The notes beneath the pieces are model-generated. The model did no database searches, was not told the DNA's origin, and saw only the letters and a list, made by a program, of their open reading frames with translations. From Spirochaeta sp. (GTDB taxonomy: Bacteria > Spirochaetota > Spirochaetia > DSM-2461): 19,648 nucleotides of DNA. This document shows, one piece after another, positions 3,731-19,648 of the stretch; within the stretch, counting starts at the first letter, position 1, and every line of letters begins with the position of its first letter. The translations under genes were made by a program, and so were the position numbers. The stretch is taken from NCBI GenBank assembly GCA_030635565.1, contig DAOVYP010000004.1, positions 1-19,648 on the forward strand, written 5' to 3'.

Positions 3731-4560
3731 TGGTTAAGTCCCCCCTCATCAGCATGCATGCCGGTACCTTCGCTTATTCTCAGGAGAATCCGGTATTCGA
3801 AGATATCGGATTCTCGGTCTGCCCAGGCGAAGTCCTGTGTATCCTCGGGCCCAACGGCTGCGGGAAAACCACCCTTCTGGACACATTGCTGGGATACCAT
3901 CGCCTCCAGGGTGGTGAAATCCTTGTTGAAGGCAAAAATGCCGATAGGATGACCGCCCGGGAAAGGGCGATGAAAATCGCCTACGTGCCACAAAATCATG
4001 AGAAAACCTTTCCTTATACCGTGAATCAGGTGGTGCAGATGGGACGGGCACCTCATCTTCCTTTTCATACCGGCCCCGGGACTGACGACCTGCGTAAAGT
4101 AGAGGAAGTCATTAAAAAGATGAAACTCTCCTCCCTGAAGGAACAGGAGTACACGCGGCTTTCCGGCGGTGAAACTCAGCTCGTGCTGATTGCCCGGGCT
4201 CTGGTTCAGGAAAGCCGGGTATTGATACTGGATGAGCCCACGAGTCATCTCGATTTTACCAATGAGCTGATAATCCTGGAAACAATTGTACGGCTTGTAA
4301 AAGAGAGTCACATCGCTGTCATCATGGCCAGTCATGTACCGAATCATGCCTTTTATTTCGAAAATCGCCGTGTTCCGGTCAGGGTTGCGCTGATGCGGAA
4401 CCGGGGTTTCTCCCATATCGGGACTCCCGGGGAAGTGCTGACACAGAAAACGATGGCGGAAGTGTACAACGTGGAAGCCAGAATCATCAGCTATGCCTGC
4501 GGGGATGACGAACGGCCCTTGAGCCATGTCGTTCCCCTCAGTCTCAAAGGAGAATCATGA
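3730..4560 (+). CDS. ABC transporter ATP-binding protein of the FecCD-type importer
   Basis: Product of 276 residues from ATG 3730; two in-frame GTG codons lie just upstream (3724, 3727), but the ATG overlaps the permease stop as TGATG and follows a CCAGGGGG ribosome site. ATPase motifs: Walker A GPNGCGKT at residues 40-47, Q-loop Gln in YVPQ near 88, signature LSGGE at 144-148, Walker B LILDEP at 165-170, D-loop HLD, and switch His at 202 in ASHVPNH. It belongs to the FecE/BtuD/MolC group. The C-terminal ~65 residues after the switch are longer and less conserved, ending in a Cys- and acid-containing tail (YACGDDERP). It energises import through the permease; its ATGA junction with the binding-protein gene indicates coupled translation. 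Confidence 0.95.
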   Translation: MVKSPLISMHAGTFAYSQENPVFEDIGFSVCPGEVLCILGPNGCGKTTLLDTLLGYHRLQGGEILVEGKNADRMTARERAMKIAYVPQNHEKTFPYTVNQVVQMGRAPHLPFHTGPGTDDLRKVEEVIKKMKLSSLKEQEYTRLSGGETQLVLIARALVQESRVLILDEPTSHLDFTNELIILETIVRLVKESHIAVIMASHVPNHAFYFENRRVPVRVALMRNRGFSHIGTPGEVLTQKTMAEVYNVEARIISYACGDDERPLSHVVPLSLKGES

Positions 4561-5657
4561 ATATTCTGAAATGCAGATTGACCTCTGGCACCCTCCTGTT
4601 TCTGCTTCTATCCGCTCGTCTGGCTGCCGTCGGGGTCGAAGAAACCACCGGCGCGCCAGCAGTATCCTCACCCTCCCGGGTCGTTGTTGACAGCTTCAAC
4701 CGGGAAGTTCCACTCCCCAGGGAGATAGGCACTATTGCCTGTCTGTACGCCTTCAGTGCTCATGTCGTCACCATGCTCGGTGAAGATGAGCGAATCGGCG
4801 CCGTGGTCCGGGGATCCAAACGCGACAGGTTATTGAACGAAATCTCTCCTAGCATCCGGAAGGCGGCGACTCCTTCCGACGACGGCATCATCAATATCGA
4901 AGAGCTGCTGGCCGTCGATCCTGATATCGTATTCCTGAAGGGAGAAACGGCCCTGCTGGAGGAGGAAACAGCCAAACTGGAACTCTTCTCGATTCCCTAT
5001 GTTGTCATCGACTTCACCGATATAGCCTCGCAGATGAGGGCCATCGAAGTGATCGGCGAAGTGCTGGGGAAGGAAGATAAGGCCGCGGACTTCAACCGTT
5101 ATTACCGGAAGGTTCTGGATGAAACCCGGGAACGTTTTGTGAACTTGAGAGAAGATGACCGGGTCCGGCTCTACCATTCGGTGAACGAGGCGACACGAAC
5201 TGATGCGGCAGGCACCCTGATGGCTGAATGGACAGAAGCCGCAGGTGCCGTCAATGTTTCGGTGGGTGAGGAACTCAGAATCTTCGAGAACAAGTATTTC
5301 GCCGGTATCGAACAGATACTGTTCTGGGACCCGGAAGTGATTATCTGCAACGAGTACGGCGTCGACAGCTACATCCTGTCCAATGAAAAATGGGCCTCCA
5401 TTACCGCGGTGAAAGAGGGCAGGGTCTGGATAATTCCCACCGGGATTTCCCGCTGGGGGCATCCCGGCGGAATGGAAACGCCCCTGGCGATACTCTGGAC
5501 TGCCGACAGACTGTATCCGGATCTGACGGAAGATATCGACATGACTGAACTGACCCGGAATTTCTACAGGGATTTCTTCGATTATGAAATCGATGATGAA
5601 CTATTAAATCATATGCTGTCCGGAGGCCGGATGAGGATGCCGAGAAACAATGGCTGA
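4557..5657 (+). CDS. Periplasmic substrate-binding protein of the probable molybdate/tungstate importer
   Basis: Product of 366 residues, type III periplasmic-binding fold (PF01497-like). A Sec signal peptide runs over about residues 1-25 (LTSGTLLFLLLSARLAAVG); there is no lipobox Cys, so it is probably a free periplasmic protein. The first lobe shows VVDSFNREVPLPREIGTIACLY (45-64) and NIEELLAVDPDIVFLKG (113-129); the second lobe shows FWDPEVIICNE (256-266) and, near the end, RWGHPGGMETPLAILWTADRLYPD (299-322), a stretch typical of many metal-oxyanion and siderophore binders. Ligand assignment rests on context (Moco riboswitch and Moco genes), not on recognisable ligand residues. It starts inside the ATPase stop (ATGA) and ends 8 nt into the next gene. 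Confidence 0.9.
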   Translation: MNILKCRLTSGTLLFLLLSARLAAVGVEETTGAPAVSSPSRVVVDSFNREVPLPREIGTIACLYAFSAHVVTMLGEDERIGAVVRGSKRDRLLNEISPSIRKAATPSDDGIINIEELLAVDPDIVFLKGETALLEEETAKLELFSIPYVVIDFTDIASQMRAIEVIGEVLGKEDKAADFNRYYRKVLDETRERFVNLREDDRVRLYHSVNEATRTDAAGTLMAEWTEAAGAVNVSVGEELRIFENKYFAGIEQILFWDPEVIICNEYGVDSYILSNEKWASITAVKEGRVWIIPTGISRWGHPGGMETPLAILWTADRLYPDLTEDIDMTELTRNFYRDFFDYEIDDELLNHMLSGGRMRMPRNNG

Positions 5658-6540
5658 TTCCCAAACGAACGAGAGAAATGAAAATCTTTCATTTCCGAGT
5701 GAGAGCAGGGAAGAGAGGTCTCATACCCCGCAGCTTGCCGCGGCAAGAAGTCGCCAGGGGCGACTTCGGGTCCAGGGCTCAGCCCTGGGGTATGATACCT
5801 CTCATTACTTTCTTTCAATCGATGATACAGACAACGAATCCAGTCCCGGAACAGGACATGTCCTGGAAGCGATCGGCAAGGTGCTTGAATCGAAGGGGCT
5901 CGGTAAGCCATCGCGTATCAGCCGGCATCAGCTGTTCGTGCATCCTGATATACCCTATACCTCCCACAACAGTGCGATGTGCATGGTTCTGAAGGATGTT
6001 GCCGATCAGGCCTCACTCATCTCCGTTACCGAAGAGGAGCTTGTCCGCCGGGCGGCTGAAGGATCGGATCCGGGAATATGTTGTGCCGGACTTTTTGACG
6101 TCGTTGATACCAACACACTTCTTTCCTGGGGTATGCGGGCGAAGATGGAAGTACTGACCATGGAAGAAGCCTATCGGACGGCCGGGAGCTGCGGATTGTA
6201 TCTGAATGAGCTCGGCGGCAGCGGGGACGGGATTATCGGTGCCCTTGCAGGTGTCGCCCTGCGCCTCGGCGGCAGCGACGGCCGCTTTCGCGGCAGAATC
6301 CCGGTCTCCATCGACTTTGGAGATAAAAACTGCACAGCGGAGGCCTTATTGGCCATCCCGGAAGTTGATGCCTGCTGCTGTGCCGATACTCGTGCCCCGG
6401 TCCCGGACTCTGACCCTGTCTTGAGTCCATCTGAGATTAAAACCGTACTCCTGAATGGGAAATCCGTGCTTCCCCTGCGGCGCAGCGGTGATATCTGGCG
6501 CTGCCTGACTCGGGAGGAAACGAAGGAAATGTTTGCATGA
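5650..6540 (+). CDS. TiaS-like 'DDTD' domain protein of unknown bacterial function, with a repeat-derived N-terminal extension
   Basis: Product of 296 residues. From residue ~53 it carries FLSIDDTDN..SPGTGH, the nucleotide/metal-binding signature of the N-terminal domain of archaeal tRNA(Ile2) agmatinylcytidine synthetase (TiaS), followed by SRISRHQLFVHPDIPYTSHNSA and a Cys/Gly-rich GSDPGICCAG. It lacks the zinc-ribbon and RNA-binding C terminus of TiaS. Bacteria modify this tRNA with TilS, so tRNA work is unlikely; its place between the importer and moeA suggests a molybdenum-related role, but this is inference. The start ATG 5650 is the only in-frame start; GAGGA at 5634-5638 is a weak ribosome site. 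About 45 residues before the conserved domain are Arg/Ser-rich and encoded largely by a palindromic element (5713-5803). It overlaps the binding-protein gene by 8 nt and moeA by 4 nt. Confidence 0.8.
   Translation: MADSQTNERNENLSFPSESREERSHTPQLAAARSRQGRLRVQGSALGYDTSHYFLSIDDTDNESSPGTGHVLEAIGKVLESKGLGKPSRISRHQLFVHPDIPYTSHNSAMCMVLKDVADQASLISVTEEELVRRAAEGSDPGICCAGLFDVVDTNTLLSWGMRAKMEVLTMEEAYRTAGSCGLYLNELGGSGDGIIGALAGVALRLGGSDGRFRGRIPVSIDFGDKNCTAEALLAIPEVDACCCADTRAPVPDSDPVLSPSEIKTVLLNGKSVLPLRRSGDIWRCLTREETKEMFA
5675..5695. repeat. Perfect 9-bp hairpin within the 5' coding part of the TiaS-like gene
   Basis: GAAATGAAA (5675-5683), loop ATC, TTTCATTTC (5687-5695). It sits 17 bases before the larger palindromic element and may belong to the same insertion or structured leader. 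Confidence 0.7.
5713..5803. repeat. Nested palindromic element: 17-nt outer arms enclosing three hairpins
   Basis: The outer arms 5713-5729 and 5787-5803 pair at 16 of 17 positions (GAGAGGT.TCATACCCC; single mismatch C5720/T5796). Inside are three compact palindromes in a row: CTTGCCGCGGCAAG (5734-5747), AAGTCGCC-AGG-GGCGACTT (5748-5766) and CCAGGGCT-C-AGCCCTGG (5772-5788, its last two bases shared with the outer arm). The whole can fold as a four-way, cloverleaf-like junction. It is not a tRNA: no T-loop TTCRA pattern and no anticodon-arm layout. It is translated in frame as part of the N terminus of the TiaS-like protein, reminiscent of the Rickettsia palindromic elements that insert into genes. 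I see no second copy in the window. Confidence 0.85.
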
Positions 6541-7769
6541 TCGATATGAAAGACGCCTATAAGCTCGTGATAGATAACAGCCTGGAATTGGAAATCGAAT
6601 CCGTTCCCCTGCGGGAGGCCGCCGGACGATTTCTATCCGGGCCGGTTGTCTCACCAATTGATTCCCCCCCCTTCGACAAATCCGCCATGGACGGTTATGC
6701 GGTTACGGTTGGGGATGAAACCTCTCAATCGGCCGGGTTTGCCATTCTCGAGACCGTCGCCGCTGGGGAGGTTCCCTCGAAGAAACTTGTTCCGGGATCC
6801 TGTATTAAAATCATGACCGGCGCGATGCTGCCGGAAAACGCCGGGAAAGTCATTCGGGTGGAATACACCGATGAATCCGACGGGGTGATGCGTGTCACGG
6901 CACCCGAGCCCTATGAAAACATCATCAGACGAGGCGAGAACCTGAAGGCCGGTGATGAATTCATACAGGTAAAACGTCTCGGTCCCGGGGATATCGGCAG
7001 CCTGGCCGCTTCCGGGATACACCGGGTAAACGTACGCCGTCGGCTGAGGGTGGGCATCATCACCACCGGCTCCGAACTGAGGGAACCGGGAGAGCCCCTC
7101 GGCCCCGGCGAAATCTACAACAGCAGCGGAATCCAGCTCTCCACCCAGATTGCGGCAGCCGGCGCGCTTCCAGTTAAATATGGAATCGTTCCCGATGATG
7201 CGGACGAACATGCCGAGGCTGTTAAAACCGGCATTAAAGAGTGCGATCTGCTTCTTATGACAGGGGGTGTCTCCAAGGGTGATTTTGACTATGTACCGGA
7301 CACCCTCAGGGAAGCCGGGGTTGAAATCGTATTTCATGGGGTTAAGGTGAAACCCGGGCGCCCGACTCTCTTCGGCCGGCGGCTCAGTGCCGGGGATAGG
7401 GATAACACCTTTATTTTCGGCCTGCCGGGGAATCCGGTCTCCACTTACATTCTGTTTGAAGTGCTTGTCAAAGCGTTCATATACCGTTTAAACGGGCTGA
7501 CTTACAGACTTCCGGTAATGCAGGGGCGCCTGGCATCGGAAATCAGACGCCGGGATACCGAGCGTATGGAGTTCCGGCCGGTAAAGCTCACCGGTACCGA
7601 GGTTGATGTGCACGGCGTCGAAGCTGTCGCCGTGAGAACGATCGAACCGGTGCGCTACATGGGTTCAGCCCATCTGAATGCCCTGGTTGAGGCCGACGGC
7701 ATTGTTGTGCTCGAACCGGGATTGGATCGAATTGAGGAGGGAGTGCTCATCGATGTTAGACTCATTTGA
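6537..7769 (+). CDS. moeA: Molybdopterin molybdenumtransferase MoeA
   Basis: Product of 410 residues, normal length. MoeA inserts molybdate into adenylated molybdopterin in the cytoplasm, the last common step of Moco synthesis. Domain order: MoeA N-terminal domains (about 1-165) with PPFDKSAMDGYAV at 44-56 and IMTGAMLP at 92-99; a MoCF-binding domain (about 170-310) with GIITTGSEL (173-181), TGGVSKGDFDYV (242-253), KPGRPTLFG (272-280) and GLPGNPVS (295-302); and a C-terminal beta domain (about 320-410). The start ATG 6537 overlaps the preceding stop as ATGA; a second in-frame ATG lies at 6546. It is followed by moaA, which begins inside its last 20 bases. Confidence 0.97.
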   Translation: MIDMKDAYKLVIDNSLELEIESVPLREAAGRFLSGPVVSPIDSPPFDKSAMDGYAVTVGDETSQSAGFAILETVAAGEVPSKKLVPGSCIKIMTGAMLPENAGKVIRVEYTDESDGVMRVTAPEPYENIIRRGENLKAGDEFIQVKRLGPGDIGSLAASGIHRVNVRRRLRVGIITTGSELREPGEPLGPGEIYNSSGIQLSTQIAAAGALPVKYGIVPDDADEHAEAVKTGIKECDLLLMTGGVSKGDFDYVPDTLREAGVEIVFHGVKVKPGRPTLFGRRLSAGDRDNTFIFGLPGNPVSTYILFEVLVKAFIYRLNGLTYRLPVMQGRLASEIRRRDTERMEFRPVKLTGTEVDVHGVEAVAVRTIEPVRYMGSAHLNALVEADGIVVLEPGLDRIEEGVLIDVRLI

Positions 7770-8553
7770 CCGGGATATCCGCTATCTTCGGATATCCGTC
7801 ACTGACAAGTGCAACCTGCGATGCACCTACTGCATGCCTGAAGAGGGTGTGGCGCCGATGGCCCATTCAGACCTGCTTCGCTTTGAACAGATTGTCGAAA
7901 TTGCTCAGGACGCGGCAGAACTCGGTTTCAACAAGATCCGCCTTACCGGCGGTGAACCCCTGGTGCGAAGAGGTATTGTCGGCCTCGTGGAGATGCTTCA
8001 CGCCGTGGAGGGAGTCGAATTTCTGGCGATGACGAGTAACGGAATACTGCTGCCTGAATTCGCAGAGCCTCTCAGGTCCGCAGGGCTTGATGCCCTGAAC
8101 ATCTCCCTGGATACTCTCGATCCTGATCAATATTCTAAAATTACCCGATGCGGCAGCTTGCAGTCGGCGCTGGACGGTATCGAAGCGGCGAGGCAGGCCG
8201 GATTCGAGAAAATCAAGATCAACATGGTAGTCTCAGATGATACCGGCCCTGAAGAAATAGCCGGGATGGAGCGCTACTGCAGGGATAAGAGCCTCATACT
8301 GCAGAAAATTCATCAATACTCCCTTACCGAAGTCAAAACCGATAACCACAATTACGATCGTCCGCCCCGTTGCGGCGGTTGTGACAGGCTGCGCCTCACC
8401 AGTGACGGTTACTTCAAACCCTGCCTGCATTCCGACAGGGAAATCAAAGTGAATTTCAATGATATACGGGCATCAATTATCGAGGCGGTTCAGGTAAAAC
8501 CGATGCGCGGCGATGTCTGCAGCGACAGAGCAATGATATCGATAGGAGGTTGA
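7753..8553 (+). CDS. moaA: GTP 3',8-cyclase MoaA, short form
   Basis: Radical SAM enzyme that, with MoaC, converts GTP to cyclic pyranopterin monophosphate. The start is ATG 7753, with GAGGAGGGAG at 7734-7743 as ribosome site; the frame upstream is moeA. The product has 266 residues, against about 320-340 for typical MoaA. The N-terminal cluster motif CNLRCTYC spans 20-27 (CX3CX2C), GGEP is at 66-69, and the C-terminal cluster motif is C207-X2-C210-X13-C224. RLRLT after the second Cys pair keeps the two GTP-binding Arg residues, and the chain ends in the Gly-Gly tail (MISIGG) needed for catalysis. The missing length lies mainly between strand INMVV (156-160) and Cys207, where ordinary MoaA has the RFIE region and about 50 more residues. 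All catalytic elements remain, so it is probably active. It overlaps moeA by 17 nt. Confidence 0.92.
   Translation: MLDSFDRDIRYLRISVTDKCNLRCTYCMPEEGVAPMAHSDLLRFEQIVEIAQDAAELGFNKIRLTGGEPLVRRGIVGLVEMLHAVEGVEFLAMTSNGILLPEFAEPLRSAGLDALNISLDTLDPDQYSKITRCGSLQSALDGIEAARQAGFEKIKINMVVSDDTGPEEIAGMERYCRDKSLILQKIHQYSLTEVKTDNHNYDRPPRCGGCDRLRLTSDGYFKPCLHSDREIKVNFNDIRASIIEAVQVKPMRGDVCSDRAMISIGG
8544..8550 (+). promoter_or_regulatory. moaC ribosome binding site overlapping the codons of the MoaA Gly-Gly tail
   Basis: AGGAGGT (8544-8550), 7 nt before the moaC ATG at 8558. The same bases make up most of the final ATA GGA GGT codons of moaA, so an optimal Shine-Dalgarno and the catalytic C-terminal Gly-Gly share sequence. 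Confidence 0.85.
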
Positions 8554-12357: not shown

Positions 12358-13122
12358 TCAATCAAATTTCTCCTGCTCTTCGATTTCATCACGTCCTGTT
12401 TGTGAGTAATCGAATATCTCAATCTTGTCGGAGATATACCAGTCAAACATATCTCTCCGTAATTTTGCCCGCCAGATTTTTCCCTCTGCCTGGCGTTTGA
12501 GATTATAGAACACGGCTCCTTCTGCCATGACTTTATCCGTTAATCCTAATTTTGAGGCTCTTTTTGTGTAATACCTGGAATAGAGCCAATCTTTGAACCA
12601 GCTGCTCCAGTTATCAAAGTTTCTTTCGTGTTCATCAAATGATTTGAACCTGAGACGATCTATTGCCGTTAAGAATGGATACCATTCATGCATATCGAGT
12701 TTATAAGGATTGCCCTGCAGTTTTGGACCAATCAGTTCACCGGCCTGTTCACCATCAGGTTTTATCAGTCCCTTGCCGGCCGACATAAGAACACCTTCGA
12801 CAATAAAGGTCTTTCCCTTGATTATCTGCAGTGGGTCTATGACATTCTTCCTGTTCTGAATTTTGACGAGCCTGCCGCCTTCAGTAAGTATTTTCACATT
12901 GGACCCATCAAGTTTCTCAACGGCAAATGTCTCAGGATCATCAAAAACCCATTCATATCCCGGATTAATTTTATCGACGACAAGGTAGGCCTCCGGAGAC
13001 CGCAGCCCCAGACTGGAGCCATGCTTTTTCCAATCATCTCTGTTTACCTTGAAAGTCTGCCGTATGAAGGGACAATAAATTTTTGGAAAATCTGTAAGAT
13101 TACCATATTCAACAATATCCAT
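12358..13122 (-). CDS. RNA ligase (nucleotidyltransferase) family protein
   Basis: Product of 254 residues. Start ATG 13122 is preferred: GGGAG lies 5 nt upstream, while the in-frame GTG at 13128 is immediately against it. Covalent nucleotidyltransferase motifs: motif I EKLDGSN with the adenylated Lys at 70, IVEGVLM (107-113), GELIGPKLQGNPY (128-140) like the GEL.G.iQ segment of T4 Rnl2-type ligases, motif IV AEGAVFY (200-206) and motif V KIWRAK (215-220). It probably seals or caps RNA ends with ATP; repair of cleaved tRNA or rRNA is a common role, but the substrate here is unknown. It is clearly more AT-rich than pbpC and the molybdenum genes and borders an inverted-repeat element, so it may be acquired. 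It starts 29 nt after the pbpC stop on the same strand and may be cotranscribed. No partner kinase or phosphatase is seen. Confidence 0.85.
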   Translation of the reverse strand: MDIVEYGNLTDFPKIYCPFIRQTFKVNRDDWKKHGSSLGLRSPEAYLVVDKINPGYEWVFDDPETFAVEKLDGSNVKILTEGGRLVKIQNRKNVIDPLQIIKGKTFIVEGVLMSAGKGLIKPDGEQAGELIGPKLQGNPYKLDMHEWYPFLTAIDRLRFKSFDEHERNFDNWSSWFKDWLYSRYYTKRASKLGLTDKVMAEGAVFYNLKRQAEGKIWRAKLRRDMFDWYISDKIEIFDYSQTGRDEIEEQEKFD

Positions 13123-13151
13123 ATTCACTCCCGGGGGTATGTTACCATTTA

Positions 13152-15407
13152 TTACCTGACCTCGATACTTCTGATAACTCTCTTTCCTCTGTGCTCGAGA
13201 ACGATGTCGGTGTATCCCGGCTCCATCGGCCAGAGGACTTCGGATGGAAGTGATCCTTCGTAGAGGATGCGACCGTTGATACTGAGGGTTGCATTTCCGG
13301 ATCCGGTCAGGCGGACCGGAATAACCTGGGATCCCGATGGGGCCCCGGGGTCAAGATAGTACACGGAACCCTCCGCGGGATGGACAATACCAAGGACGGC
13401 GCTTTCGGAAAAGTCGATGTCGTAGCCGTAACGGTTTGCCCAATATGAGTACTCCTGGGGATATCGGACCACCGACCGGGCCCTACCCGCGGCATCGGCG
13501 TGCCAGTTGCAGGGAACCGGTGCGGTACCCGGGGCGAAGAGCTCGTCCATGGTGTAAGTGCAATGGGGCGTGTACCCAAGCCCGCTGATGCTGCATATCC
13601 TCCTGATTTCCAATTCCGTGTGCCGTGGAAGGGCGCCTTTTGCGCTCCATGCGTCGAAGGCTTCGTGCAGAACGATGGCCGGGAGTGATGATCCGGGGGC
13701 ACCCATTACCGTGGTACCGTCGAAATTGCCCATCCACACCCCTCCGATGAGATCGGAGGTGAATCCCAGGGCCCAGATGTTGTTGAACTGATTCGAGGTT
13801 CCGGTTTTGATGGCCGCGGGGTAGTCGAACCGGACCGGCCCGCTCCGGCCGAAGGTCATTACCCGGTCGTCGACACTGCTGATGATGTCGGCGATGATGT
13901 CTGCCGAGCTGGAAGACCAGACCTGCCTTCCATATCCCACCTCGTCGCTGATGAAACTGAGCGGCCGGACAACGCCTCCGTTGTAGAGACCGCCGTATGC
14001 CTGAACCAGTTCTGCGAGGCTCACTTCGCCGCCGCCGATGGCCAGACTGACCCCGAGCTTCCCCCGTTGATCCTCAAGACCGGCGAATCCGGCGTCGATG
14101 AGTGTTTCGGTGAAGTTCTCCACGCCCAGGCGTTCCAGGGTGAATACCGCGGGAACGTTGAGGCTGGCGGCCAGGGCCTGGCGCAGGCGTATGGGGCCGT
14201 GGTATTGCTCGTTGTAGTTTTCCGGTGAATAGACGAACAGACCTCCGAAATCGGTGGGTATGTCCGGCAGAATCGTGGAGGCGGTCCAGCCTTCCTCCAG
14301 TGCTTCGGCGTAGAGCAGGGGCTTGAGGGTTGATCCCGGCTCCCTGAGCATACGGATGCCGTCCACCTGGCCGTCGTTTTCCGTATCGCGAAAATCGGCC
14401 GATCCGATATAGGCCAGAATGCCCATGGTCGCCGGATCCGCGAGGATGAGGGCCCCGTTGCTGATCCGGAAGGCCCCGGCGATGTCCACGTGGTGACGGA
14501 GCAGACGCTGGGCTTTGCGCTGAATCACCAGATCGAGGGTCGTGGGTATCGGTTCGAGGCCTCTACGCCTCCCGGCCGGCCAATCATCGCGATTGATCAT
14601 GATGTATTCCGAGAAATGCGGAGCCTCGAAGGGCCATTGATATGGCGTATCGAGCAGCCGGCGATGGGCTGAGTCGGCGAAACCGGCGCGTTCATCGGAA
14701 TCGAGGACTCTGACGGCCAGTCGGGCGGCGGCTTCGTGGTTCTTCTCGGGGAAGAGTATCGGGTCGAATCGTCCGGGGGCCCGTGGAATGACCGTCAGGA
14801 CGCAGAATTCCACAGGGTTCAGTTCCGGGAGATCCCGGCCGAAATACAGCCGGGCGGCGGCGGGATACCCTTCGACATTCCGGCCGAACGGCACCAGATT
14901 GATGTACAGTTCCAGGATTTCTCTTTTGGTGAACCGGGATTCAATCTGCAGGGCTTCCCAGGCTTCCTTCGCTTTCATCCCGATTGTCACCGGAGCCGAC
15001 GGAGGACGCGGGTCGATGATCCGGGCCAGCTGCATACTGATGGTGCTTCCACCTCCTTTCGGAGCGCCTGACCGGGCAAAGCGGAAGCCGGCTCGGGTCA
15101 GGGACGGCGGATCGATCCCGGGGTGCAGGTAGAAGCGGCGATCCTCGCTTTTCCGGACGATGGTCAACAGCTCCTCCGGTATCCCGTCCCAGGGAACGAA
15201 GATTCGCCTGAGACCCTCGCCGTTAACCGGCCTGACCTGGATCAGGCGGCCCTCCCGGTCGAGGATGCGATGAGACCAGATCATGGCGTCCAGGGTGTCC
15301 TCGCCGCCCCAGGGGACGAGCCGGGGCAGGATGCGCACCGAGGCAAGATAGAGGAACACGAGACTTCCGGCAATGATGAGGGCCCGGCGGAGGTTTTTTC
15401 GCGCCAT
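13152..15407 (-). CDS. pbpC: Penicillin-binding protein 1C, bifunctional glycosyltransferase/transpeptidase
   Basis: Product of 751 residues, normal for PBP1C. Start ATG 15407 overlaps the stop of the upstream macroglobulin gene (TGATG), with GGGGAG just before; an adjacent GTG (15410) is possible. One N-terminal membrane anchor (about 9-22) is followed by a GT51 glycosyltransferase domain with SEDRRFYLHPG (87-97), GGGSTISMQL (118-127) and KREILELYINLVPFGRN (161-177). The transpeptidase domain shows the SXXK serine at 359 (PGSTLKP), SLN at 415-417 and KTGTS at 534-538. The C terminus (about 660-751) is the BiPBP_C-type beta domain. It would polymerise and crosslink peptidoglycan in the periplasm. 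Pairing with an alpha-2-macroglobulin gene is widespread and suggests envelope defence or repair after protease attack. Confidence 0.95.
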   Translation of the reverse strand: MARKNLRRALIIAGSLVFLYLASVRILPRLVPWGGEDTLDAMIWSHRILDREGRLIQVRPVNGEGLRRIFVPWDGIPEELLTIVRKSEDRRFYLHPGIDPPSLTRAGFRFARSGAPKGGGSTISMQLARIIDPRPPSAPVTIGMKAKEAWEALQIESRFTKREILELYINLVPFGRNVEGYPAAARLYFGRDLPELNPVEFCVLTVIPRAPGRFDPILFPEKNHEAAARLAVRVLDSDERAGFADSAHRRLLDTPYQWPFEAPHFSEYIMINRDDWPAGRRRGLEPIPTTLDLVIQRKAQRLLRHHVDIAGAFRISNGALILADPATMGILAYIGSADFRDTENDGQVDGIRMLREPGSTLKPLLYAEALEEGWTASTILPDIPTDFGGLFVYSPENYNEQYHGPIRLRQALAASLNVPAVFTLERLGVENFTETLIDAGFAGLEDQRGKLGVSLAIGGGEVSLAELVQAYGGLYNGGVVRPLSFISDEVGYGRQVWSSSSADIIADIISSVDDRVMTFGRSGPVRFDYPAAIKTGTSNQFNNIWALGFTSDLIGGVWMGNFDGTTVMGAPGSSLPAIVLHEAFDAWSAKGALPRHTELEIRRICSISGLGYTPHCTYTMDELFAPGTAPVPCNWHADAAGRARSVVRYPQEYSYWANRYGYDIDFSESAVLGIVHPAEGSVYYLDPGAPSGSQVIPVRLTGSGNATLSINGRILYEGSLPSEVLWPMEPGYTDIVLEHRGKRVIRSIEVR

Positions 15408-18400
15408 CACTCTCCCCGAATCACAGCCAGGCGCCCGCCACCGCGACCGAATACCTCTGGCTCGAACTCAAGGCTCGCAGAGATGGGGGGTGTCGGGTAC
15501 ACCCCCGGCGTAGTGGTCCGGATGAGGAAGGTGATTTCACGTTGTCCCGGGTAGAAATCCTCCCATGTATAGGTGACGGTATTGTCGTACACTTTCTGAA
15601 TCGGCCGATAGAACCAGAATGACCAGGCGCCGGGTCCGAAAGTGGCATAACCTTCGGCTACGAATGTCGCAGTATCCCCATAGACAGTCTCCCGGGTCCA
15701 GGACTCACCGCCGGTCCCCCCGGCATCGCCGTAACTGCCGGTGGTGGAGAAGCTCGGATCCACGATTTCAGTCCCTGAGGGAACGGGAACTACGAGTTTC
15801 AGGAAACTCCTCCTGGATAATGTGCTCAGGGTGACCCGCATCCGCAGTGTCTCCCCCAGGGGAAGGTTTCCTTCATCCAGAATCTCCCCATCCAGGGTTT
15901 CCACCTGGCTGAAGATTTCGATGCCCTCGTCCCGGGGCAGGGCTGTTTCCGTCGGAAGGGCGTATGACAGGGTCGCGGCGTAGTAGATGTCGCCCGATCC
16001 GTCCTTCCCGATTCTCAGAGCCAGGGGAACCCCCTTCTCCATCTCTGAAAGTGGAGATTCCGCCAGAGGGAAATCTCCCCGGACCGATTCTCCTTCCATC
16101 ATCCGTTTATCCTCGAGATCGATGGTGAGCCCGTAGTTCGTGCGGCGGGCTTCCCGGGCAAGCAGCGGCATGAATCCTGTGACGACCCAGAAATCGTCGA
16201 AACGGGATCCGAAACGACGGGAATTCCGGTTCCCGTTCAGGGCCCCCGCCATCCGGAGCACGAGTTCCGGTTCCTCATCGCGCGATACGGCGGTCTTGAG
16301 CATCAATGCCAGTTCAGCCTCTTTGGAGGAGAAATAGCCCACCGCTTCGTACGTCTCGGTGATATCGATGAGGCGGGTACCGATGGTGATGAAATTCCGG
16401 CTTCGATCATAAAGTGCCCCGGCTTCTTCCTCCCGTCCCAATACTCCATAGGCCTGGGAGAGCAGGTTGTATCCGGCGATGCCGAGCCGGTCTTCCGAAT
16501 CGTACAGCCAGGAAAGGTCCGTCGGGATCACCACCCCGTTTTCCGCCAGGATCCATGCCGTCCAGGCTGCCAGAAATGATACCTCATCATCCCCGGCGGC
16601 GGCGTTCAGCATTTCGGTCAGGTATGTGTTCAGGGCGGCGCTATCCACCGGATTGTCGAAACGCGTTTCCGATCCGGATATTTCCAGAAGGACATGAGCC
16701 GCCAGGGCGGAGAGAAACCAGCTCGGTTTTGTATAATCCAAACCGGGAGACCGGTATCCGATGCCGCCGTCGGCGAATTGAAGATCCGCCAGCTTGCCGA
16801 ATACCTCTTTCGCCCCGGTCGCTTCACCCGTCGCGGCCAGATTCGCCACAAGGCCGTAGAGGAGGTCGTTCTGAGACGGGTAGGGAATGTTCCTGAGCTT
16901 ATTCAGACGGCCTTCGATATAGGGCCGCAGCGTTGAGTCGACTACCAGGGAGAGCCCGCCGAATCCTTCGGCGGCATGGATGGGTATTACCAGGGTTTCA
17001 ACAACCGGTTCCCCATCACCGACAATCCCGATGGTGGCGAAGGCCTCGGTCACCAGAGGACGTTCCACAATCACCTTCTCTTCGAGGATTTCGTTGAGCA
17101 CGTCGCTCCGGATTGTGAAACGAATTACCCCCTCGCCTTCCACGGCGGCTTCGAGGGCGAACGGCAGTTCGGTTGTGGAGTTCGCCGGCAGAACCAGGGA
17201 TTTACGGGCTCCTCCGATGATAGAAAGGATGTCCGAATCGGCCGTCACCGTTACCTCCCGATCCACATCCGACATATTGGTGAGAACAACTCCCGCCGCG
17301 GCGGTATCCCGGTTACGGAAACGCCGGGGCAGGGCCGTTCGGACATTGATGGGGTTGCTGACCCGGAATTCGTCCTCGTCGAAGCCGAGCCTCACGCCGT
17401 CCAGGGCCACGGCGGTGAGCCGGTAGGTACTCAGGTTATCCGGAAGCTTCATCTTGAGACGGACCGCCCCGTCCGGACCGGTTCTGAGATAAGGCTCGAA
17501 CAGTGCCAGGGGGTTGAAGTCCTTCCGCACCTCGAGTTTGGCTGAATCGCCCCCCTGGAGGTTGGAAATCTCGTAAGTGACCGGCCGGAGCAGGAGCCTG
17601 CGGCTGTCATCTCCCATCACTCCATGGGGGAAATGGTACTCATCGTAGAAATAATCCAGGGGATTGGGAACATGGTAGTTGATGAGATCAAGGACGCCCC
17701 GGTCCACTGCCAGAACGGTGATTTCCGCCCCTTCCACCGGTCGTCCGTCCCGTTTCACGCGAACGACAATTTCAGCCTCATCTCCCGGGCCGTAACTCTC
17801 GAGGACGGATTCGACGTCGACATCGAGTTCCACCGGCGTTGTGGCCACACGAACCGTGGTGAGCCCGAAGAGGCCCCGGGGCCGGCCCAGGTCGGGTTCG
17901 AAATAATCGTCTTCGGTATCTGTCCTCTCGGTGAAACCTGAAAGCGCCACGTAGAAGACCGGGAGATATTCTTCCTTCACGGGGATTTCGATAATCTCGC
18001 TGGAACCCTCGAGGGTGACGATCCTCTGTTCAAGGATGCCTTCCCGTTCCACCGTGAGGAGATAACGGCCTTTGGGAATCGGCGATTCGACCAGAATTCT
18101 GGCGGTATCTCCCGGCTCGTAAAGACTTTTATCGACGATGAGGTTGATGTCGCTTGGCGTCCGGCTGGCCCGTTGAACCCATCCGCTGCCAGTGGCGTAG
18201 AAGTCGATTTCCGTCCGTGCCGGCCGACCGGCTTCGTCGGTATAAATGAAAAAGAGGGTGTAACGGCCCGGGTCTTTCACTGAGACACGCAACTCCGATC
18301 CACCGTCCTTAAGGGGTTTCTCCTCTCTCCACAGTTCTTCCTCGACGAACTCCCAGCGGGTGTTCACCCGGCCGTAGAGGCCTTGCTGACTTGCCGATTT

Positions 18401-19648
18401 CCATTCCCCTTTCACCAGGCCCACCGTCAATGCGCCGCCGGGATCAACTCGTCCGCCCCGGACGTCGGTCAGCCGGGCCAGGACCGTCACTTCTTCTCCT
18501 GTCGGAACGAAACGTGACCACCAGCCGTCGACAGATCCCCGATCGAATCGTGCGGCGACGTAATACTCGGCGGGGTGCACGACGGCCGACGTGATACTGG
18601 ATACCACCTGACGATCGATGTCCTCAACGGTGGTCTCCAGGGTGTATCGGTAGGCTTTCCCGGTAACTTCGTGATCAATAGTGCCCTCGCTGATCCGGAC
18701 CGAACCGGCTCCGGACAGATTCCCGTCGCCGGATGACAATGTCTGTTCGGGCGCCCAGGCGGAGGTTCCGAATACCCAATCTTCCCATTCTTTCCCGGGA
18801 GGCGTATAACGGACCGGCTTACGGGTCCAAAAGTAGTGGTAACCGGCCGAAGGCAGGGCACCGCCGGCCAGGTAGGAAGAATTTACTGTGGCTTCCACCG
18901 CATCCCCGTGGTAGTAGTCTCCCTCCCGAACGGAAGAATTCACCTGGAAGGCAACGCGCCGGAACGAAGCAATGCGGAACGATGCGCTGCGCCGGGCACC
19001 CCGGCCCTCGTAGATAATCTGGAACGATCCCGGATCAAGATCCTCAGGGAGTCTCAGGCGATGGGCGAATCCGCCGGATTCCGTAGTTCTGCCGCCCTGC
19101 GACCATACAGCTTCCCCGGTATCCGCCTCGACGATGCGGATGTCATAGGATCCCGAGTAACTTTCGAAGCCCCCGGGATTCTGCATCCAGTGTATGCCCC
19201 TGAAGGCCAATTCTTCCCCGGGTTTGTAGAGTCCGCGGTCGGTGAACATGTGAATTCTGTCTACGGCTTCCTCGACTTGCCCGGGATTAACCGTGTTGTA
19301 GACGCCGAATGCGTAGGATCCTTGAGTATTCTGCACCCGCATCTCGGCCAGATCGCCGCCTTTCTCGGCTCTGACGTGGACCGAATCCGTCCGGGTACCG
19401 GAACGGTTATAGAATGCCTGTCCGAATTCTTTTTCGGGGATCACTACCGACGCCAGCCCCGTCCCGTCGGTGACCGCCCCGTAGCTTTTGCCGTTCAGGT
19501 TGAACACCGTAACCTTGGCGCCGGAAACCGGCTGCCCGTCGGAAAGCCGATTCACCCAGACCAGGACCCGATTGTAGGCCACCCGGACAGAGAGGCCCAG
19601 GTCGGTCACCTGGACAGCTACCTCGCCGTTCCGCCACTGCCGCTTCTC
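15407..19648 (-). CDS. Bacterial alpha-2-macroglobulin-like protein, 5'-truncated by window edge, thioester site degenerate
   Basis: At least 1413 residues; the frame stays open to 19648 (reading E-K-R-Q-W-R-N-G-E-V before VQVTDLGLS), so the GTG at 19609 is not the start and the signal peptide/lipobox lies outside. The order follows bacterial A2M: macroglobulin domains beginning at TDLGLSVRVAYNRVLVWVNRLSDGQPVSGAKV, a bait-like stretch, the core segment LALFEPYLRTGPDGAVRLKMKLPDNLSTYRLTAVAL (split here as one conserved run), an alpha-helical thioester-type domain, and a receptor-like C-terminal domain ending near PPISASLEFEPEVFGRGGG. Where thioester members have PYGCxEQ, this one reads PYPSQND (about 16870-16887), so the Cys and Gln are gone. 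It should act in the periplasm on proteases without covalent trapping. It is coupled to pbpC by a 1-nt stop/start overlap. Confidence 0.93.
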   Translation of the reverse strand, partial: EKRQWRNGEVAVQVTDLGLSVRVAYNRVLVWVNRLSDGQPVSGAKVTVFNLNGKSYGAVTDGTGLASVVIPEKEFGQAFYNRSGTRTDSVHVRAEKGGDLAEMRVQNTQGSYAFGVYNTVNPGQVEEAVDRIHMFTDRGLYKPGEELAFRGIHWMQNPGGFESYSGSYDIRIVEADTGEAVWSQGGRTTESGGFAHRLRLPEDLDPGSFQIIYEGRGARRSASFRIASFRRVAFQVNSSVREGDYYHGDAVEATVNSSYLAGGALPSAGYHYFWTRKPVRYTPPGKEWEDWVFGTSAWAPEQTLSSGDGNLSGAGSVRISEGTIDHEVTGKAYRYTLETTVEDIDRQVVSSITSAVVHPAEYYVAARFDRGSVDGWWSRFVPTGEEVTVLARLTDVRGGRVDPGGALTVGLVKGEWKSASQQGLYGRVNTRWEFVEEELWREEKPLKDGGSELRVSVKDPGRYTLFFIYTDEAGRPARTEIDFYATGSGWVQRASRTPSDINLIVDKSLYEPGDTARILVESPIPKGRYLLTVEREGILEQRIVTLEGSSEIIEIPVKEEYLPVFYVALSGFTERTDTEDDYFEPDLGRPRGLFGLTTVRVATTPVELDVDVESVLESYGPGDEAEIVVRVKRDGRPVEGAEITVLAVDRGVLDLINYHVPNPLDYFYDEYHFPHGVMGDDSRRLLLRPVTYEISNLQGGDSAKLEVRKDFNPLALFEPYLRTGPDGAVRLKMKLPDNLSTYRLTAVALDGVRLGFDEDEFRVSNPINVRTALPRRFRNRDTAAAGVVLTNMSDVDREVTVTADSDILSIIGGARKSLVLPANSTTELPFALEAAVEGEGVIRFTIRSDVLNEILEEKVIVERPLVTEAFATIGIVGDGEPVVETLVIPIHAAEGFGGLSLVVDSTLRPYIEGRLNKLRNIPYPSQNDLLYGLVANLAATGEATGAKEVFGKLADLQFADGGIGYRSPGLDYTKPSWFLSALAAHVLLEISGSETRFDNPVDSAALNTYLTEMLNAAAGDDEVSFLAAWTAWILAENGVVIPTDLSWLYDSEDRLGIAGYNLLSQAYGVLGREEEAGALYDRSRNFITIGTRLIDITETYEAVGYFSSKEAELALMLKTAVSRDEEPELVLRMAGALNGNRNSRRFGSRFDDFWVVTGFMPLLAREARRTNYGLTIDLEDKRMMEGESVRGDFPLAESPLSEMEKGVPLALRIGKDGSGDIYYAATLSYALPTETALPRDEGIEIFSQVETLDGEILDEGNLPLGETLRMRVTLSTLSRRSFLKLVVPVPSGTEIVDPSFSTTGSYGDAGGTGGESWTRETVYGDTATFVAEGYATFGPGAWSFWFYRPIQKVYDNTVTYTWEDFYPGQREITFLIRTTTPGVYPTPPISASLEFEPEVFGRGGGRLAVIRGE

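Follow-up and report, generated by a model that had tools for sequence, protein, structure and literature searches.

The palindromic segment at the start of a TiaS-like gene in the window (the whole stretch of 19,648 nucleotides of Spirochaeta DNA analysed here) is one copy of a dispersed repeat that has been inserted precisely and has retained its reading frame, whose fold is conserved and whose location in genomes is non-random. We consider it very probable, at roughly 0.8, that this is a selfish structured element, copies of which persist after stop codons, between genes, near N-termini and in signal peptides, where the residues they encode would be discarded. A sequence-only reading of this DNA had put forward two explanations for the segment. 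The first, a palindromic element inserted into a gene in the manner of the Rickettsia palindromic elements (RPE), is upheld by the finding of dispersed copies and of homologues without exactly this segment; the second, an RNA structure within the operon, is taken up in the final section.

The window copy and its empty site

As a net insert, this copy of the dispersed palindromic element comprises 147 nt, or 49 codons, at positions 5659..5805 (+), as judged from the alignment of copies, a reconstruction of the empty site and the start of a homologue, MDDYYLSIDDTDN. It is flanked by the target tetranucleotide TGAT (5655..5658, +), in which the TGA (5655-5657) also terminates the upstream gene. 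Because ATT is common to both ends, the empty site is identical whichever 147-nt stretch, from 5657-5803 to 5659-5805, is taken out. Within the copy, a 5' domain (5658..5712, +) has an outer stem, formed by TTCCC (5658-5662) and GGGAA (5708-5712) and marked by compensatory changes, around an inner 9-bp hairpin (5675-5683/5687-5695, +). A 3' domain (5713..5803, +) has 17-nt arms (5713-5729/5787-5803), which are 94% complementary, around palindromes at 5734-5747, 5747-5767 and 5772-5788.

Much of this architecture had been recognised from the letters alone. The 9-bp hairpin, followed 17 bases on by the 17-nt arms, is present as described, and the three hairpins placed within the arms exist as palindromes in the sequence, but the lowest-energy fold of 5713-5803 is one long imperfect hairpin, not three separate ones. 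On the window strand this fold has an energy of -58 kcal/mol compared with a mean of -33.4 (sd 3.4) for shuffled sequences (z = -7.2), with 0 of 200 shuffles as good, and a transcript of the element would be expected to be strongly structured. The extent originally proposed, 5675-5803, lies within the repeat unit but is too small, because other copies match the window from 5655 to about 5806: in the layout of 30 matches from the same genome the unit begins at 5655/5656 (TGATTCCC) and ends at about 5806 (CTCATT). Since the unit starts there, the first hairpin (5675-5695) is part of it.

The TiaS-like gene (5650..6540, +; 296 aa, with 3007 homologues) reads through the element. As had been claimed, the element lies inside a coding region, in that the frame from ATG 5650 to the stop at 6540 is open throughout, although the added codons number 49 rather than about 45. 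It was also correctly noted that no in-frame start follows the element, there being no ATG, GTG or TTG in that frame between the element and DDTDN. The protein has no Pfam match at E 0.001, and its similarity to NCBIfam TIGR03280 and to TiaS NF040849 is weak and far below cut-off.

When the insert is removed, the gene starts MADYFLSIDDTDN, and the closest homologue among the best 120, P0002 (72% identity), starts MDDYYLSIDDTDN, with equal length. The offset of the DDTD motif is 7-9 residues in 111 of the best 120 of the 3007 homologues, 12-33 in seven more, and the motif is absent from one short entry; an offset of 57 is found only in the window protein. In two genomes of the same family (G024 and G014), the orthologues can start MKLLIAFDDTDN and MKILIAMDDTDN, at the same place as the other homologues, and the DNA before them is, by inspection, the end of a related upstream gene, with no element at the junction. 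These comparisons of starts and DDTD offsets provide the check that had been proposed, namely whether relatives lack exactly this segment, and the homologues do lack it.

Upstream lies a periplasmic binding-protein gene (4557..5657, +; PF01497), the end of which overlaps the TiaS-like start and the TGA stop of which overlaps the insertion target. This TGA and the downstream ATG overlap as ATGGCTGA, with the target TGA falling within codons 2 and 3 of the TiaS-like gene, and both signals are kept after insertion. We propose that a non-autonomous structured mobile element added 147 nt at T[G/T]AT(T), without duplication beyond 2-3 shared nucleotides, the probable target in the window having been the TGA stop of the binding-protein gene. 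Because the insert has a length divisible by three, contains no in-frame stop and leaves the upstream stop and downstream ATG in place, both genes remain readable. The TiaS-like protein should then carry 49 extra residues after Met-Ala-Asp, a prediction in which the insertion comes from comparison and the translation from the open frame.

Dispersed copies, conserved ends and mobilisation

The proposed search for other copies in the host genome and its relatives was productive. Window 5700-5815 has at least 33 matches in its own genome, the window copy included (E ≤ 0.001; 40 of 45 candidates scored, in a draft that is 78% complete), and matches were obtained in 10 of 61 genomes, again including its own, with at most 13 candidates scored in most carriers. 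Three genomes of the same genus yielded at least 58, 33 and 33 matches, from 40 scored candidates out of 57, 42 and 41 respectively, where a single copy may yield several matches. Searching the fetched loci with a profile yielded 161 non-redundant hits, reverse-strand and partial hits included, 78 of which reach both ends. Some copies have further palindromes in the 5' domain (e.g. L003, L011, L013) or in the 3' domain (e.g. L154). At one site, L002 from the window's own genome and L154 from G005 share the same flanks and differ in the inner 5' hairpin, L154 having the extra 3'-domain palindrome; this may represent either one insertion altered in place or two insertions at one site.

The ends of the element are sharply defined. 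In 77 full-length copies, the left end reads TGATT in 47, TTATT in 20 and otherwise in 10. The right end is TCAT in 67; the next base is T in 57 of them, C in 5, A in 3 and G in 2, and beyond it there is no base preference. Such variation at the last position speaks against a strict duplication of 3 bp, ATT; insertion without duplication beside T[G/T]AT and a 2-bp duplication of AT both fit the ends. Since the two ends, TGATTCCC and CTTTCATT, are not reverse complements, there is no terminal inverted repeat, including one of the roughly 12-bp RPE type. A classical MITE, moved by a DDE transposase, is rejected because the ends lack such repeats.

The fold is likewise conserved across copies. 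In an alignment of 26 copies, hand-picked from 28 listed and drawn from the genus and from five more distantly related genomes, both sides have changed with pairing kept in 18 of the 40 consensus pairs; the rows are related, so that the pair changes are not independent events. The outer 5' stem, for example, occurs as TTCCC/GGGAA, TTCTC/GAGAA and TTCGC/GCGAA. The hairpins are presumably conserved because a mobilising enzyme recognises the folded strand.

The exact right-end pattern was found in 66 stretches of a genome collection from which records of the window's own genome may be absent: 20 in spirochaete-named records and 46 in others, the right end being common to all 46 by construction. 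The full-length profile matches nearly end to end in 6 of these 46, from Moranbacteria (L229, L231, L239, L265), Parcubacteria (L249, best E = 1e-21) and Taylorbacteria (L247), all of which we take to be Patescibacteria. In records of Bacteroidales, Clostridiales, Roseburia and other Bacillota the match extends over the 3' domain at most, and the 5' part is different. The family is nearly full-length in Spirochaetes and Patescibacteria and represented by the 3' domain alone in Bacteroidales and Clostridia. One Bacteroidales record (L234, L235, L241 and others) contains many near-identical shorter elements with the same 3' domain and a different 5' part; a search of this genome for PF01797 gave no match.

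Recurrence in unrelated phyla points to some mobilising system. A possible, if doubtful, candidate is a Y1 (HUH) transposase, which would move the family as a passenger of IS200/IS605 or REP/RAYT type, with a fixed tetranucleotide and no target duplication. Passengers derived from IS200/IS605 and REP/RAYT systems are palindromic, lack terminal inverted repeats and have a fixed flanking tetranucleotide. The spirochaete element is likewise palindromic and without terminal inverted repeats, and its ends would suit a fixed tetranucleotide as they would a 2-bp duplication of AT: 67 of 77 copies have TGATT or TTATT as their left flank, the right end is TCAT, with a variable next base, in the same proportion (67 of 77), and the subterminal hairpins are conserved. 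In addition, Y1 genes occur in the carriers G005 and G047, and PF01797 is present in 15 of the 61 relatives and in 3 of 8 further carriers. Against this, the carriers G000, G006 and G008 have no PF01797 match, although these are incomplete drafts in which absence is not proof, and the domain was not found in 5 of the 8 further carriers, including the Bacteroidales, Roseburia and Clostridiales records, which are also drafts. Several carriers of the spirochaete element differ from IS200/IS605 and REP/RAYT systems in having no Y1 transposase match. Moreover, in 29 loci around Y1 genes nothing resembling the ends of the element was found beyond chance matches of at most 23 nt, and no mobilising enzyme emerged from the PF01797 searches of the 61 relatives and 8 further carriers. 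In the available part of one account, REPs are also said to be rather short, at 14-40 nt in E. coli, and to overlap coding regions only seldom (PMC12306157), in comparison with about 150-200 nt for the spirochaete element.

In-frame copies and export signals

To describe where copies sit, 76 of the 78 full-length copies were examined by removing the element and seeking ORFs that span the junction and have at least 100 codons, regardless of whether the element was open; L143 and L187, which begin at a contig end, were left out of this survey, and counts of openness and ends used 77 copies. In 12 sense copies the junction is in codon phase, with ATT as a codon (phase 0), and 10 of these are open through the element: L011, L014 (minus strand), L016, L017, L020, L022, L023, L037, L182 and L184. 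The other two, L003 and L144, were both scored as failures. By inspection, nine of the ten open copies lie in N-terminal export signals, as illustrated by the junctions (at the slash) MFRHLIKTVSFVFLI/LTLLLSSC, MTSSRPRMKLI/LLALIFIPALSA, MYGFRRSLI/FSFFVVFLTSAALSA and RFHLLYLLII/ALLLLAGC; these signal peptides were called by eye and from hydropathy. The tenth, L017, is six codons before a stop and outside signal peptides. L182 is a weak case with degenerate ends, and it may precede the true start of its gene, since its TGA is also an upstream stop; the start codon of the L014 gene is uncertain because its orthologues lack the ATG nearest the signal.

Ten further sense copies lie in other phases, and the only open one is the window copy. 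It is atypical of the family: the TiaS-like protein is enzyme-like and has no signal peptide, and its 49 residues enter after residue 3 in a different phase. Antisense copies account for 25 ORF rows, with five open: L016 (opposite its sense gene), L044, L036, L148 and L152. The copy in L036 (1306-2013, +; G008) is in frame at the N-terminus of a HypD-like protein (PF01924), and that in L148 (1219-2487, +; G005) is in frame inside a GHMP-kinase-like protein whose Pfam match is just under cut-off; the open antisense copy in L152 precedes an ApbE protein and is perhaps upstream of its true start.

Three comparisons support the retained frame and the non-random location of the copies, with the caveat that the thresholds of 45, 80 and 100 codons were set after the copies had been seen and that copies within a genome are not fully independent. 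Elements that are open and a multiple of three make up 10 of the 12 embedded phase-0 sense copies and 18 of the 65 other full copies (Fisher p = 4e-4). No more than 45 codons separate the first possible start from eight of the 10 open phase-0 sense copies (L022 is at 73 codons). The same holds for 135 of 611 controls, which were T[G/T]ATT sites lying in phase 0 within ORFs (p = 2e-4; leaving out L182 gives 7/9 and p = 6e-4). Finally, among the 49 copies that start with TGA, this triplet is the stop of an upstream ORF 80 or more codons long in 9, compared with 43 of 1075 control TGATT sites taken from genus loci (p = 1e-4), two of the nine stop copies being in the distant genome G020.

In all nine signal-peptide copies the hydrophobic core is kept. 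The end of the element together with the downstream sequence reaches a best 10-residue hydropathy of 2.5-3.8; a value of 2.3 is reached within the first 35 residues by 20% of 204 ORFs. The element usually closes with the codons ATG ATA CCW TTC ATT, encoding MIPFI, which runs into the hydrophobic core that remains. Orthologues were sought for five of the nine copies, and the sister-species genome G005 has an uninterrupted orthologue, of equal length around the site, for all five loci: L011, L016, L020, L014 and L023. Other orthologues from the genus, where the stretch reached the N-terminus, are also without the element. The empty sites in sister species serve as natural controls. At L037 (G006), the host gene starts, before the copy, with DNA (ATGATACCATTCAC, read as MIPFT) similar to the right end of an element. 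This suggests repeated insertion into one signal peptide, with an older decayed copy just before the present one.

These data are consistent with a model in which genus copies persist where they do little damage: in intergenic DNA, immediately behind TGA stops, or in frame close to N-termini. In the signal-peptide copies, some 40-65 inserted residues would be cut off along with the signal peptide. The location pattern is most simply explained by survivorship, with the loss of harmful insertions, and by a contributing property of the target, which reads as a hydrophobic residue followed by Ile in a signal core. More tentatively, and with somewhat less than even odds, we suggest a multi-hairpin selfish family that crosses phyla and has signal peptides as a safe harbour, in which the T[G/T]ATT target and open frame permit insertion, MIPFI rebuilds the core and signal peptidase discards the peptide. 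The position of most in-frame sense copies in signal peptides offers a simple and testable reason for their tolerance, since what is inserted would be discarded in export. It also bears on annotation, as the N-termini of several exported spirochaete proteins would be misread.

A different account of the signal-peptide copies, which we regard as unlikely, is that translation restarts at the ATG of the element (MIPFI...), so that the element donates a new start. This ATG is in frame in the signal-peptide copies, and in L182 it is followed by MRPRIRQLFTALVLSSLLMLAAC, which reads as a complete lipoprotein signal, but a restart would not require the upstream frame to be open, the resulting signal has no basic N-region for most copies, the ATG adjoins a stable hairpin and, in the window copy, it is out of frame. 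Less probable still is that the insert is present in the gene and missing from the protein, either through ribosome bypass or through RNA removal by way of the matched terminal ATT triplets; the translational bypass elements of yeast mitochondria provide an analogy for the former. The strong fold would suit such a process, as would the match, in signal-peptide copies, between the ATT codon before the element and the ATT at its end, such that skipping would restore the ancestral protein exactly. Yet bypass or splicing needs no open frame, which is at odds with the openness of 10 of the 12 phase-0 sense copies versus 18 of the 65 others, and the frame of the window copy gives GAT before the element and CAT at its end, which do not match.

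Relation to known elements and to the host operon

Most known protein-coding selfish palindromes come from Rickettsia and Wolbachia. In the accessible portions of two accounts, RPEs are fused in frame within protein genes, with a guanylate kinase that carries one still active (PMC2229807, PMC10969869). Like the element described here, RPEs and the Wolbachia protein-coding palindromic repeats are about 100-150 bp long, palindromic and present in many copies, and they occur in frame in unrelated protein genes and also between genes, as far as those portions describe them (PMC2229807, PMC10969869). Measured against the RPE description of a palindromic repeat of about 105-146 bp in many copies, the spirochaete element has 147 nt, a strong fold and at least 33 matches, and it too is inserted in frame in unrelated protein genes that have element-free relatives. 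The two differ in that RPEs have a 12-bp terminal inverted repeat (given in a table of PMC2229807, the source being available in part), which the spirochaete element lacks, and belong to another phylum; moreover, the concentration of in-frame sense copies in signal peptides that is present here is unmentioned in the parts of the RPE accounts at hand (PMC2229807, PMC10969869). The spirochaete element thus works like an RPE and is set apart by the absence of a terminal inverted repeat, the likeness being one of organisation.

A second parallel is offered by the enterobacterial RU-1/RU-2 repeats (ERIC/YPAL), including the case of Yersinia YPO1552, which are likewise small mobile repeats with an open frame and, according to the available text, help to form the signal in a putative new exported protein (PMC2759123). 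In contrast, the copies described here interrupt an existing signal that has element-free orthologues, and the core continues after the element. Titles and the beginnings of abstracts among the matches listed from the open-licence literature yielded no account of this element, or of in-frame palindromic elements concentrated in signal peptides.

The remaining explanation, a structured regulatory RNA dedicated to the operon and separating its importer from its cofactor-synthesis genes, is highly improbable and was rejected on the dispersal of copies: the element does lie where importer genes give way to synthesis genes, and its fold is far more stable than those of shuffles, but copies of the same family lie at many places beside unrelated genes, the junction in G024 and G014 has no element, and no Rfam family covers it (covariance models at gathering score gave 0 matches in seven carrier loci, and window 5400-6100 has two sub-threshold matches only, both outside the element).

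Directly downstream of the TiaS-like gene, and overlapping its end, is a MoeA gene (6537..7769, +; Pfam MoeA_N, MoCF_biosynth and MoeA_C). It is followed by a short MoaA-like radical SAM protein (7741-8553, +; 270 aa), which matches only positions 71-98 of 128 in the profile of the C-terminal Mob_synth_C domain, below cut-off, and which we take to be a shortened or divergent MoaA. Elsewhere in the window, a 256-aa protein (12358-13128, -) has a weak, below-cut-off RNA-ligase match (PF09414), and a penicillin-binding-protein-1C-like gene (13152-15410, -; TIGR02073, 472.9 bits versus a cut-off of 494.2) directly follows a 1400-aa ORF (15407-19609, -) that presumably resembles alpha-2-macroglobulin.
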